Below are positions 2 to 42,642 of a stretch of DNA of 49,284 bases, piece by piece; positions within the stretch are counted from its first letter, which is position 1, and every line of letters starts with the position of its first letter. Origin of the DNA: Gammaproteobacteria bacterium. Its GTDB lineage: Bacteria; Pseudomonadota; Gammaproteobacteria; SZUA-229. The translations under genes and the position numbers were made by a program. The stretch spans positions 1 to 49,284 of the forward strand of contig JAPHSS010000061.1 in assembly GCA_026195255.1 (NCBI GenBank), given 5' to 3'. Below the pieces are notes generated by a model. It ran no database searches. It saw only the letters and a list, made by a program, of their open reading frames with translations, and was not told the origin of the DNA.

Positions 2-184
2 AAATATCCTTTATCTCGTTTTTTATATGTTTATGTGAACAAGCATCCTAATAAAGAGCTTGCGCCTTTAGAAAAAGAGTTCGTTAAACTTATTTTATCC
101 AGGCAGGGTCAGGAAGTTGTAATAAAAGATGGTTATATTCCACTACCAGCTAATGTGGTTGAAAGGTATCTGTCTAATTTATAG
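2..184 (+). CDS. PstS-like phosphate-binding protein, C-terminal fragment
   Basis: Only the last 60 codons and the stop lie in the window. The tail contains [11 protein letters not shown], then an acidic/hydrophobic helix ([12 protein letters not shown]) and GYIPLP. This is the usual C-terminal pattern of PstS-type periplasmic substrate-binding proteins of phosphate ABC transporters, where the last helices close the second lobe. In the family these proteins bind phosphate in the periplasm and deliver it to PstCAB. No pst transport genes follow; the next stretch is a non-coding repeat and an opposite-strand receptor, so this is either the last gene of its operon or a stand-alone binding protein. 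Family assignment rests on a short tail and the exact ligand is not proven. Confidence 0.7.
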
Positions 185-224
185 AGATTATTTAAGATTC
201 CATAACTTAAAGCCGCAGTGATGT

Positions 225-319
225 CAGGCGTTAACTTAATCTGTTGATGTCATGTTTTTAGAAGTCTAAAGTCCCATTCCTGTATAGGTTGGGGCTTTTT
301 TATGCATTAGAAAATATCT
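225..319 (+). repeat. 95-nt structured repeat with intrinsic terminator, copy A
   Basis: This block matches 40432-40526 on the minus strand at about 84 of 95 positions in my ungapped hand alignment. It begins CAGGCGTTAACTTAATCTG, has a small palindrome TTTAGAAGTCTAAA near 258-271, and ends in a hairpin plus T-run (about 269-301). The hairpin has outer arms AGTCCCA and TGGGGCT and an inner CCT/AGG pair. Substitutions between the copies keep the stem paired: G-C here is A-T in copy B, and T-G here is C-G. It starts 40 nt after the stop of the PstS-like gene. It could be a 3'-UTR terminator element, a small RNA family, or a mobile MITE-like repeat that carries a terminator. Confidence 0.75.
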
Positions 320-634
320 GCTAGAAATATAATAAATACCAGGTTTCGTTTTCTTCTGTTTTAGCTTTTTCAGGCTGCTTAACTCAATACCCGTATTAAG
401 ACCCAGCTTAATTGATGATTTATTGTTAAAAATTAATTTTTCTAATAGAACGTAGAGTAGTGCTCGTAATAATTACGAAGTAGGTAAGTCTTTTTTAATT
501 TGAAGTTTATCAGTTTAGTGTTTGCATTTATTCGCGGTTTCTATACCTCTGGACAGTGAGGTGGCTTTTTTCTTTATATTATTTAAAAGCAATTTTTATC
601 TTAATCGATCAATTGAGTTTCTAGATGTATATAT
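320..634. other. non-coding gap with a second plus-strand terminator-like hairpin
   Basis: No convincing gene is seen here. A perfect inverted repeat TCGTAATAATTACGA lies at 464-478. A hairpin with arms ACCTC and GAGGT at 545-562, followed by GGC and six T, looks like a plus-strand intrinsic terminator. It sits about 270 nt beyond the terminator of repeat copy A, and the gene to its right is on the other strand. It may therefore end a short non-coding transcript. A weak promoter-like pair is TTGTTA at 423 and TAATAG at 443, but its 14-nt spacer is short. Confidence 0.35.
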
Positions 635-2656
635 TTAAAAACTATATTGGTATTGAGCATATGTAGAAAAGCCTATACCACCTGGAACATCATTTACTCT
701 TCTTCTAACAGGTTCAGGGTAGGTATATCTTTCATCTGTAATATTATTAAAAATAAGTTTTACACTGTGTTGATCGATTTTATAATTGGTTATGAAATTA
801 ATTAATTGATAGCTGTCGAGTGTGCTGCGTTCACTGGTAATTGATGAGATGACATCTTTTTCGCCAACATATTGCGCGGTGAGTGTGGTGTTTAAATTTT
901 TAGTGATGTGATAGCTTAGTATGGTGTTAAGTGTTTTGTTGGCAATTAGTGGTGCATCCTTTTCATTAATTGATTTATCTTCCCCATCTACATATGCTGC
1001 ATTAATAATCAGCTCTAGTTGTTTATTTAAAATTGATTTCCATTCAATTTCAAGACCGTTCATTTTTTTACCTTCACCATTTTCATAAAAGGTGGCCTGG
1101 CTTGGAGCGGGTAATGGAACTCTCAGTATTTCATTTTCCAGATTTAGTGTGTATACAGCTAATTGAAGTTTGTTTTGCTCGTTTATTTGCGAATCTATAC
1201 CAATTTCAAATGTTTTTATGGTTTCTCTTTCGAGGTCCGGGTCTCCCATTAATACATTATTGAGATTGACATACCTTTCTATGAACATAGGTGATCTAAA
1301 GGCTTCACTATAAAGAACTTTAATATAAGTCTCAGGCATTAACTGATAGGTTAAGCCGAGTTTTGGCATAATACCGCTACCTGCATTTTCTGAATTGTTT
1401 TCAGCTCGTACACCCGCAATAAATAGTGTGTTGTCATTCATCTGATATTTTATTTGAGTATAAATTGCAGCTGTATTTGTTTCATGGTTTTCAGCGAAGG
1501 CATCTGATGTCGTGCTGCCATCTAAATCTGATGTAAATAATAATGGAGTTGATTTCTGTTGTTCTATGGTTCCACCAACTATATAGTTTAAACTTTCAGT
1601 AATCTTATCTTTGAACTGAGCTTCCAGGCTATATCTTTCTACTTTATTTATAACTGTAGATGCATTACTTAAAGAATCATCACATGAGCCAGCGGGTGTT
1701 GGTATTGATATGTTGAATGCAGAACAATCGGCTGAGCTTGCAGGGAACGGAAATTGATTAACATGTATGTCTTTATCGCTAAGATCGTATCTTAGCCAGA
1801 AATTTAATTCTCCAGTTTTAATATTATATTTTTTATTGGCATCAAGATAACCAACAAAGTTTTCAAAAGTTCCGTTTTGCCATGTCCAGGGGTTGATGCC
1901 ATACATCGCTTTTTCACGATCAAAGATTGCGCCATGTATACGCCAGTCATCTCCAAAGCTATCAACAAATACATTTTCAATATCATAGCGATAATCGAGA
2001 TCTACGGCATTGCCAAATTCATCGTTTGTTGCGCTGTAATCATATCCATCATCACGTTGTACACTGGCGGCCATGCTAAAGTTTTCACTATGGTGTACAA
2101 GGCTACCGTAAATATGTGAATTGCTACCGGCCCTGAATGTTAGCTGGTCATTGTTCTCTTTGCCCTGCCTGGTTATGATGTTTATAACACCGCTTATAGA
2201 GTTTGTGCCGTAAAGAACAGAGGCAGGGCTACGAACAACTTCTATGCGTTCAACTATTTCTATTGGCACATAATCAAGCAGGGTTGAACCAAACAGGCTT
2301 TCGTATGAGGGGTGGCCGTTAATCAGATACAGGGATTTGTTATTGAATAAGCCAGGTGTGACGCCCCTGAATGTTTGCGTGGTTTGGCCAATATATGTTT
2401 CGCTTTTAACAATGCCTGGTAATAAACTAATAGCATCGTGGATATTAGTAATGCCCCATTCCTGAATCTGTTGTGCTGTAATGATAGAGATAGCGGCGGG
2501 TGATCTTGCGACTTGTTCATTTTCCTGCGAGGCGGTATAAACTTCTACCTGCATTAGCTCAGTTAAGGACATCGAAAAAAAGTCCAGATCATCAGCAAAT
2601 ACGTTTGTTATATTTAATAAACCGATAATGAGCACCGGGCTAGCCTTAATTAACAC
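635..2656 (-). CDS. TonB-dependent outer-membrane receptor
   Basis: A 673-aa outer-membrane beta-barrel transporter. The first ~21 residues form a signal peptide ending near VFA-DD. A plug domain follows at roughly 45-160, with the family hallmarks SPAAISIITAQQI, LLPGIV, VVRSPASVLYGTNSISGVINI. A long barrel then runs to a terminal Phe (QYQYSF), the C-terminal signal recognised by the BAM machinery. The family imports siderophores, haem, cobalamin or similar ligands using TonB energy. The start is GTG at 2656, with an AGGTG ribosome-binding site 8 nt upstream. No transport partners lie next to it, and I see no clear Fur box or cobalamin riboswitch upstream, so the ligand is unknown. It diverges from aroA across a ~257-nt AT-rich gap. 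Confidence 0.9.
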   Translation of the reverse strand: MLIKASPVLIIGLLNITNVFADDLDFFSMSLTELMQVEVYTASQENEQVARSPAAISIITAQQIQEWGITNIHDAISLLPGIVKSETYIGQTTQTFRGVTPGLFNNKSLYLINGHPSYESLFGSTLLDYVPIEIVERIEVVRSPASVLYGTNSISGVINIITRQGKENNDQLTFRAGSNSHIYGSLVHHSENFSMAASVQRDDGYDYSATNDEFGNAVDLDYRYDIENVFVDSFGDDWRIHGAIFDREKAMYGINPWTWQNGTFENFVGYLDANKKYNIKTGELNFWLRYDLSDKDIHVNQFPFPASSADCSAFNISIPTPAGSCDDSLSNASTVINKVERYSLEAQFKDKITESLNYIVGGTIEQQKSTPLLFTSDLDGSTTSDAFAENHETNTAAIYTQIKYQMNDNTLFIAGVRAENNSENAGSGIMPKLGLTYQLMPETYIKVLYSEAFRSPMFIERYVNLNNVLMGDPDLERETIKTFEIGIDSQINEQNKLQLAVYTLNLENEILRVPLPAPSQATFYENGEGKKMNGLEIEWKSILNKQLELIINAAYVDGEDKSINEKDAPLIANKTLNTILSYHITKNLNTTLTAQYVGEKDVISSITSERSTLDSYQLINFITNYKIDQHSVKLIFNNITDERYTYPEPVRRRVNDVPGGIGFSTYAQYQYSF

Positions 2657-2913
2657 TGGTATATCACCTGTTATAATTTAAATTCTGAATTAATAATTGT
2701 TATATTTAAAGAAAATTTCTATATGTTTAAGGGTTAATTCGTAACTGACTCATAACTATTATAGAAGCCAATTTCATTAATTTCAGTTATGAATATCCTT
2801 TATATTGTTTAACAGCTATAAAAAAGTCTGGAAGTTCCCCTGATGGGAAGCTAATATCCCTATCTCTCAAATTTCAACATAGAATTATGGGTTACTAGCT
2901 CAAAGTGGAAGAT

Positions 2914-4227: not shown

Positions 4228-4253
4228 CAGACACTGCTATGATGCTTAATGCT

Positions 4254-4290
4254 CGGGGACTGAGCGCCGCCTTTTGGCGCTCTATCCCCT
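4254..4290 (+). other. strong hairpin between aroA and cmk
   Basis: Nested inverted repeat: GGGGA pairs with TCCCC at the base, and GCGCC with GGCGC above it, around the loop GCCTTTT. There is no T-run after it, so a classic intrinsic terminator is unlikely. It could stabilise the aroA 3' end, act in Rho-dependent attenuation before cmk, or be a REP-like element. Confidence 0.5.
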
Positions 4291-4419
4291 TAATTGATAC
4301 CACCCGGAGTTAATAGAGTAGATAGTCGACTCTGTAACGTCCTTAACTGTTTCACAACTGGCTTCAGAGCGGAAAAACACCGATCTGAACCCGAGTAAAA
4401 TTTGCTGATGGAAACTGAT

Positions 4420-40030: not shown

Positions 40031-40284
40031 CTAGTGATGGTGATTAGTGTTTTCTATAACACCTGCTTTTTCATCGGCTACATCAATCATCATTATCGAT
40101 TCATTGAGATGTAAGGCTTCTTTAAACTCATCAGGATGACATGGGGTATATACCTTACAAAAAAATTAGCCGCAGCAAAACTGAAAATCAAGAGAAGAGG
40201 AAAACGCGAATGAACGCAAATATTAAATTGATAAGTATCTTTTCTGGTTAATCCAGACACCCATGTTAACAGGTTGAGGCACAT
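40031..40284 (-). pseudogene. possible frameshifted small secreted protein
   Basis: On the minus strand one frame gives a signal-peptide-like run FPLLLIFSFAAANFF. A second frame, starting just after a run of seven T, gives CKVYTPCHPDEFKEALHL and continues to NHHH then stop at 40031. One extra T in that run would join them into a single protein with a Cys pair and a His-rich tail, suggestive of a metal-binding secreted peptide. No good start codon is seen in the first frame near its signal-like part (the longer frame's ATG is at 40284). The frameshift may be a real mutation, a sequencing slip or chance. Confidence 0.25.
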
Positions 40285-40398
40285 CTACATCGGGGGAAAG
40301 ACCGTCGCTGTTTGGCGCTCTGACCCTTAAACCTATACCACCAGAAGATGTTCGGTGTATAAAAGCTAATCCATCGAGCCTTATCCAGATATACATAA

Positions 40399-40428
40399 CT
40401 CGTTCCCACGCAGGAGCATGGGAACGAG
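40399..40428. repeat. REP-like palindrome
   Basis: CTCGTTCCCA pairs with TGGGAACGAG (10 bp perfect), then a C-A mismatch and GC/GC around AGGA. This CTCGTTCCC...GGGAACGAG hairpin is a well-known dispersed REP type in many bacteria, usually spread by RAYT transposases. It abuts repeat copy B within 4 nt. Confidence 0.7.
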
Positions 40429-40431
40429 ATA

Positions 40432-40526
40432 AGATATTTTTTAAGGCATAAAAAAACCCCAACCTATACAGGAATGGGGTTTTAGACTTCTTGAACCATA
40501 ACATTAACAGATTAAGTTAATGCCTG
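40432..40526 (-). repeat. 95-nt structured repeat with intrinsic terminator, copy B
   Basis: Minus-strand counterpart of 225-319. Reads CAGGCATTAACTTAATCTG, then ends in a fully paired hairpin AACCCCA / TGGGGTT (inner CCT/AGG) and seven T. It begins 31 nt after the fusA2 stop and so is the fusA2 3' end. The terminator function is supported by position and structure. The conserved first half, which lies outside the hairpin, is not explained by termination. Confidence 0.75.
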
Positions 40527-40557: not shown

Positions 40558-42642
40558 TTACTTGTTTGCTTTACGTTCTTGAGCTTCTTTAATAACTTCT
40601 TCCGAAACATTTTTCGGACAAGGGTTGTAGTGTGAGAACTCCATAGAGAACTGACCACGACCTGAAGTCATTGTACGTAAGTCACCAATGTAACCAAACA
40701 TTTCGCTTAGTGGAGCATCAGCTTTAATACGCACACCCGTTGGACCAGCTTCCTGGCCCTGAATCATTGCACGACGACGGTTTAAGTCACCAATAACATC
40801 ACCAACGTGATCTTCAGGAGTGAAAACGTCAACTTTCATAATTGGCTCAATGATCTGTGGAGCGGCTTTAGGAATAGTCTGACGGTAAGCGCCTCTGGCT
40901 GCAATTTCAAAAGCAACAGCAGATGAGTCAACAGCATGGAAAGCACCGTCTACTAGCGTAAATTTCACGTCTAATAATGGGTATTCAGCTAAAACGCCTT
41001 TGTCCATCATGCTAGCGAAACCTTTTTCAACTGCAGGCCAGAATTCACGAGGTACATTACCACCGGTTACTTTTGACTCAAACTCAAAACCTGAGTTAGC
41101 TTCACCTGGTTCAACGATGTAATCAATCTTACCAAACTGACCAGAACCACCAGACTGTTTCTTATGTGTGTAACTGTCTTCAACTCTCTGCGTGATGGTT
41201 TCGCGATATGCTACCTGTGGTTTACCAACAGTAACGTCAACACCATGAGTACGTTTAAGAATATCAATTTTTATGTCCAGATGAAGCTCGCCCATACCAC
41301 GTAAAATTGTTTCACCAGACTCTTCGTCTGTGTTTACGTAGAAAGAAGGGTCTTCTGCAACCATCTTGGATAAAGCCAGACCCATCTTCTCAGAACCACC
41401 TTTATCATTAGGTGAGATCGCGATAGAAATAACCGGATCAGGAAATACCATTGGCTCTAATGTCGCTGGATCTTTTTCATCAGCTAAAGTGTGACCTGTT
41501 TGAACGTTCTTCAAACCAACGAATGCAACTATGTCACCAGCTCGACAGCTTGAAATTTCTTCCGCTTTATCAGCGTGCATCATAACCATACGGCCGATAC
41601 GTTCTTTTTTACCTGTGAAAGTATTTACTAAGGTATCACCTTTGTTAATTGTACCTGAGTAGATACGAACGAAAGTCAGGGCGCCGAAGCGGTCATCCAT
41701 AATTTTGAATGCTAATGCACGAACAGGCAGTGTCGGATCAACAATTGCAAACTTACCTGTTTCTACACCTTCTTCATCCACTTCTGGCTGAGGTGGTACG
41801 TCTGTCGGGCAAGGCAGGTAATCAACAACTGCATTCAGCACGGGTTGAACACCCTTGTTCTTGAACGCAGAACCGGCGTATGTAGGGAAGAAATCTAATG
41901 CGATTGTGCCTTTACGGATACAACGCTGAAGGTCTTCAATAGAAGGCTCTTCACCTTCCAGGTATTTTTCCATTAGTTCATCGTCTTGCTCAACTGCAGT
42001 TTCGATTAGTTTTTCACGCCATTCTTCAACGTCATCTACCATGTCAGCAGGCACATCTTCTAATGTGTAGTTTAATGGGTCGCCAGAATCGTCCCATATC
42101 CATGCCTTACGAGTTAACAGATCAACTACGCCCTGAAGGCTGTCTTCTGTACCAATAGGTAGAACCATAACAAGTGGGCGAGCAGCAAGAACGTCTTCAA
42201 TCTGTTTAACAACGCGGTAGAAGTCAGCACCGATACGGTCCATCTTGTTGATGAAAATAACACGTGCAACTTTAGATTCGTTTGCATAACGCCAGTTAGT
42301 TTCAGACTGAGGCTCAACACCGCCAGATGCACAGAAAACACCTACGCCGCCATCTAGTACTTTAAGTGAACGGTAAACTTCGATTGTGAAATCAACGTGG
42401 CCCGGTGTGTCTATGATATTAAACTGATGATCGTCCCAAAAACAGGTAGTCGCCGCAGACTGGATAGTAATACCGCGCTCTGCTTCCTGTTCCATGAAGT
42501 CAGTAGTCGTAGTGCCGTCATGCGTGTCACCGGCTTTGTGAATTTTACCAGTGAGCTTCAAAATACGCTCAGTGGTAGTCGTTTTACCCGCATCTACGTG
42601 TGCGAATATGCCGATATTTCTATAATGAGATAGATCTGTCAT
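40558..42642 (-). CDS. fusA: elongation factor G, EF-G2 type
   Basis: 694 aa. GTPase motifs: G1 AHVDAGKTT at 14-22, [15 protein letters not shown]; then domains II-V in the usual order to [11 protein letters not shown]. The sequence [28 protein letters not shown] is that of the second EF-G of Vibrio, Shewanella and relatives, not the str-operon FusA. It is not next to rpsL, rpsG or tuf. EF-G2 proteins may act in recycling or under special conditions; which here is unknown. The upstream gap (329 nt) holds a minus-strand TATAAT with GC-rich discriminator. Repeat copy B forms its 3' end. Confidence 0.93.

Follow-up and report, generated by a model that had tools for sequence, protein, structure and literature searches.

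A 95-nt sequence found twice in a 49,284-nt stretch of gammaproteobacterial DNA (hereafter the window) is probably a young, lineage-restricted, non-coding interspersed repeat that supplies replacement transcription terminators and belongs to a larger mosaic of intergenic repeats. The element would consist of a first hairpin followed by an intrinsic terminator, and its terminator-bearing copies stand at the 3' ends of mutually unrelated genes, where, at the native terminator or replacing it, they would do its work. On leaving such a gene, polymerase would transcribe hairpin 1, then the G+C-rich hairpin and the T tract, and then stop; termination at these T tracts is what we infer. The original prediction had proposed either a small RNA family or a mobile element carrying a terminator. 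The second reading, which the dispersed copies with a terminator-like hairpin and their absence from the orthologous sites of relatives suggest, is the better supported, and the small RNA family gained no positive support.

Two copies, each folding into two hairpins

The match between copy A (225–319, plus strand) and copy B (40432–40526, minus strand) holds as first reported, with 84 of 95 positions identical and no gaps (88% identity; blastn E = 3.9e-29 with the whole own genome searched). Similarity drops sharply upstream, where 9 of 40 positions agree, and ends sharply downstream, where 10 of 60 are alike. Copy A starts 40 nt past a TAG (182–184) and copy B 31 nt past the fusA TAA (40558–40560), as had been noted. 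The length of 95 nt stands as the extent common to A and B, and not as that of the element at large: A, two further copies (C9 and C25; Table 1) and the htpG copy of a second genome of the genus, G002, share extra downstream sequence. The end of copy B is a junction with another repeat.

The predicted fold of either copy has two hairpins (z = −3.56 for A and −3.72 for B, with 1 of 200 shuffles equally stable in each case). The first half, supposed to lie outside the hairpin, is itself a hairpin with a 9-bp stem and a 7-nt loop, so the earlier argument from conservation outside the hairpin fails. The second hairpin (−14.5 kcal/mol in A, −14.8 kcal/mol in B) is followed directly by 6–7 T, and this G+C-rich hairpin with an adjoining T tract is a predicted intrinsic (Rho-independent) terminator. 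Its stem is interrupted near the loop, and a simple terminator scan left it unflagged in both copies, marking hairpin 1 and a site at 544–563 instead at A, and the hairpin of a neighbouring repeat, M2, at B.

Table 1. Features of the window and copies elsewhere in the same genome
Feature	Position	Strand	Basis or remark
Copy A, two-hairpin unit, CAGGC to end of T tract plus ATG	225–304	+	blastn, fold
Copy A, hairpin 1, loop UUAAUCU, −10.0 kcal/mol	227–251	+	fold
Copy A, terminator hairpin and T tract, −14.5 kcal/mol	268–304	+	fold; missed by simple terminator scan
Start of the tail common to other copies	300–336	+	sequence match between copies
Repeat module M1 match, downstream of copy A	347–407	+	repeat search
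Repeat module M3 match, other than behind copy B	4253–4327	−	repeat search
Repeat module M3, downstream of copy B	40266–40359	−	repeat search
Palindromic repeat module M2, abutting copy B	40396–40431	−	repeat search, terminator scan
Copy B, two-hairpin unit behind fusA (elongation factor G)	40447–40526	−	blastn, fold
C9, behind htpG			Pfam HSP90, NCBIfam HtpG
C25, behind VPLPA-CTERM protein gene			
C68, behind gene of protein with N-methylation motif			
C67, terminator half only, behind ATP-sulfurylase gene (sat)			
SPOR copy, seventh and diverged, behind SPOR-domain gene			orthologue in G002

Two paired changes between A and B had been called compensatory: G-C to A-T is indeed two-sided, and T-G to C-G is one-sided only. 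Across six full copies, pairing is kept in 96.6% of cells, and two base pairs have changed on both sides (the second being C-G/U-A), which preserves the terminator stem; 47 of 500 shuffles reach that number, so that covariation in this set is modest. With the two SPOR copies added, four pairs are two-sided, which 17 of 500 shuffles equal, and the covariation score lies above all 500 shuffles; both controls lean towards structure, the sequences being related and the structure having been drawn on one of them. RNAalifold alone recovers the same two helices. The loop UUAAUCU is identical in A, B, C9, the G002 htpG copy and both SPOR copies, where the stem differs, and is altered in C25, C68 and the G002 locus L008. 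Most full copies have a common start near CAG. An imperfect direct repeat, TTATGCmTTAGA, stands on both sides of the terminator and is single in L008, and the terminator has therefore been either gained by the unit or lost from it.

Copies, their distribution and the native terminators

The two copies first reported are both real, and they are part of a larger set: a blastn search of the own genome, G000 (3.56 Mb), matches six places, namely A, B, C9, C25, C67 and C68. In all, this genome holds five full copies, one copy with the terminator only, and the SPOR copy as a diverged relative. The host genes are unrelated to one another; the one preceding A is present as a C-terminal piece of 60 residues, which the PstS family model scores at 46.9 bits, below its cut-off of 206.6, and for which Pfam gives no match. 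Every one of the seven terminator-bearing copies in G000 comes after a same-strand stop codon, at gaps of 40, 31, 94, 42, 39, 19 (C67) and 41 nt.

A covariance-model search had been proposed earlier as a check. The model, R1, was built from the six full copies and the two SPOR copies, whose scores are thus high by construction. Among 54 family genomes, with stricter filters and E ≤ 0.001, it matched two, G000 at seven places and G002 at two, both loci being common with G000; a first blastn search had matched 2 of 40 genomes, G000 among them. In five genomes of the genus the independent matches are weaker, namely C67 (38.7 bits, E 8.5e-4) and L008 (33.6 bits, E 0.006), followed by L168 (24.9 bits, E 0.55) and L165 (23.3 bits, E 0.74), both chance-level by the model. 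L165 was accordingly left out of the copy count; L168 was retained, as it resembles hairpin 1 plus tail by eye and has an orthologue, L100 (blastn E 7.1e-4), and a search with its unit as query yielded no further clear copy. L008 and the orthologous pair L168/L100 (in G000 and G002) carry hairpin 1 and lack the terminator, which is therefore not part of every copy. L008 lies between ferredoxin-like and gamma-glutamyltranspeptidase genes and L168/L100 between DsrC-like and 4Fe-4S protein genes, antisense to both neighbours in each case.

In the relatives G001, G003 and G004 the element is absent behind fusA, where plain single hairpins stand, behind the pstS-like gene, where G001 and G004 have a short plain terminator and G003 a longer region whose terminator lies further along, and behind htpG. 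Behind sat the same three genomes have plain terminators, and G000 has the element's terminator and tail. G002 is 74% complete, and there the fusA, sat and pstS-like sites do not allow comparison because the latter two genes have no match and fusA only a remote one. An RNA structure ancestral to the genus is rejected, since inspection of the SPOR 3' regions in G001, G003 and G004 showed no TTAATCT hairpin.

Some features of these neighbourhoods are recorded for their own sake. In G001 and G004 an aroA-like gene directly follows the pstS-like gene, and at window positions 184–2904 a TonB-dependent receptor gene (635–2656, minus strand), together with copy A and repeats, separates the two. Positions 3–98 of another G000 contig, C66, duplicate the first 32 codons of the window (2–98), which makes a junction of the two contigs within the pstS-like gene probable. 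In a further relative (L011, 2181–2270), an unrelated fusA terminator is followed by TTTTTTATGTCTTTAGAAAAATAT, which is like the element's TTTTTTATGCATTAGAAAATAT.

The element's landing inside a native terminator is documented at htpG only. The native terminator folds at −19.0 kcal/mol in G001 and −19.7 kcal/mol in G004, and the equivalent stretch in the element-bearing lineage at −4.9 (G002) and −3.4 kcal/mol (G000). In both of the latter the native left arm and loop are kept and the element then starts; it begins inside the native terminator, which is broken. About 490 nt of repeats in G000 stand in place of about 51 nt of native sequence (G001) before homology resumes; as regards a target-site duplication, the site is not a clean insertion, these 51 nt being gone, and the element has no defined 3' end. 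In the MAFFT alignment the far end of the repeats bears a weak T-rich likeness to the native right arm; this stretch is read as repeat because part of it is also present behind copy B. A remnant of a native left arm before every copy is not upheld as a general rule, as orthologues document htpG only; hairpins at the 5'-flank junction are no more stable than shuffles at most loci (p 0.03 to 0.65).

This one locus suggests selection on the terminator, which between the G000 and G002 htpG copies shows 0 differences in 37 positions, against 21 in 158 in the remaining flank (p = 0.016), three indel columns being left aside. Hairpin 1 differs at 1 of 25 positions (p = 0.32, not significant), the spacer at 2 of 15, and a large upstream hairpin of the htpG 3' UTR at 5 of 51. 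At the SPOR locus the parts differ at 3/25, 3/20 and 3/34 positions against 19/135 in the flank, with no excess conservation anywhere. The large htpG hairpin (L003 1421–1471, with an orthologue in L007) lies upstream of the element and is kept in G000 and G002; G004 was seen on inspection to have a different hairpin at that place. The htpG locus thus combines a broken native terminator, a repeat-borne one beside it, and close relatives for comparison.

The repeat mosaic and competing explanations

In 449 kb, comprising the window and 20 stretches of which several were picked for holding copies, repeat searches at E ≤ 1e-3 matched M3 21 times, M2 17 times and M1 9 times. For the parts of the element itself the counts were 6 (terminator), 4 (hairpin 1) and 3 (tail); among the terminator matches, C8 only looks alike and lacks the other parts. 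M2 and M3 follow copies B and C9 downstream in the same order. M3 has two nested stems and often forms adjacent inverted pairs at many G000 loci, reminiscent of REP doublets, and the M2 palindrome, CTCGTTCCC...GGGAACGAG, occurs at many loci, often downstream of other repeats. An inverted-repeat search of three regions (A, C9 and L008) found no terminal inverted repeats such as define MITEs, the ends of the element being uncertain; it returned the terminator and a single 13-nt pair that extends from the T tract into a neighbouring repeat. Transposition or recombination is what we infer to have spread the copies; the analysis established neither a transposase nor terminal inverted repeats nor a target duplication for the element. 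A plasmid origin is rejected so far as searched, with no plasmid match, and so is a phage origin, with two phage matches at E = 0.09; two patterns searched in viral contigs gave no exact match.

A bolder version of the replacement-terminator reading, conceivable though improbable, makes the element a specialist of host terminators, which would land in them and break them, its own terminator rendering the landing harmless, and would so rewire the 3' ends of unrelated genes within a single lineage; hairpin 1 might then be a landing signal or a cap that stabilises the new 3' ends.

It is unlikely that the copies are inert debris of a decaying repeat mosaic, found behind genes as 3' regions tolerate insertions and carrying a fortuitous or redundant terminator. 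The density of M1, M2 and M3 and the occurrence of terminator-less copies are in keeping with such decay, but the same-strand placement of 7 of 7 copies and the identity of the htpG terminator between species argue against it, as does the break in the native htpG terminator, which means that another is needed there.

It appears quite unlikely that the copies form a family of regulatory RNAs derived from 3' UTRs, in which processing before hairpin 1 would release a two-hairpin fragment acting in trans, for example via the loop UUAAUCU. A stem-loop followed by a terminator is the usual layout of 3'-UTR-derived RNAs, the element shares that layout, its fold is stable, and the loop is constant across six copies although the SPOR stem differs. 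Against this stand the restriction to 2 of 54 family genomes, hairpin 1 without significant constraint, the changed loops of C25, C68 and L008 and the unrelated host genes. A scan for one consensus type found no sigma-70-like promoter near A or B. Rfam 15 gave 0 matches in the whole window at gathering thresholds, and a known Rfam RNA is rejected, a lax search of positions 180–420 having returned chance-level matches only (Spot 42, E 0.81, at 16.1 bits where the cut-off is 80; IS009, E 0.97). Structure, several copies and paired changes behind genes do not by themselves make a small RNA family.

Convergence of independent native terminators is very improbable: many unrelated terminators of the genus do have the shape AAAAGCCCC...GGGGCTTTTTTATG, and for C67 the idea may hold, but 88% identity over 95 nt, first half included, and the common start of most full copies speak against it.

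Relation to known systems

Terminator-like repeats are already known from other bacteria, and the interspersed repeat proposed here is SPRITE-like in kind, with dispersed terminator-bearing copies near gene 3' ends (7 of 7 in G000). The pneumococcal SPRITE, described as one 18-bp duplex with a long U-rich tract (PMC3049150), is likewise a small interspersed repeat with an intrinsic-terminator-like fold, enriched near gene 3' ends and clustered with other repeat families (PMC10969869). The present element lies outside that structural definition, having two hairpins, a 9-bp first stem, a short terminator stem and terminator-less relatives, and it belongs to a gammaproteobacterial lineage. Class C group II introns are also mobile units associated with host terminators, and are described as inserting downstream of intrinsic terminators (PMC3522654); they are large ribozymes that act by reverse splicing, none of which was seen in the Rfam scan of the window, and they leave the terminator before them intact, whereas at htpG the native hairpin has been broken.

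REP/REPIN and MITE repeats (PMC3116915; MITEAba12, PMC6382973; Coxiella QMITEs, PMC5896051) resemble the element as short, dispersed, intergenic hairpin repeats. It differs from them in that no terminal inverted repeats or target duplications were found for it. For MITEAba12, ARNold is reported to have predicted no terminator (PMC6382973), and two QMITE families are described as having given rise to small RNAs (PMC10969869). The paired DNA uptake sequences of Neisseria, cited as acting as terminators (in PMC2267715 and PMC3049150), offer another case of a repeated sequence doubling as a terminator; those terminators are built from two words of about 10 bp, whereas the element described here is an 80-nt unit present in a handful of copies.
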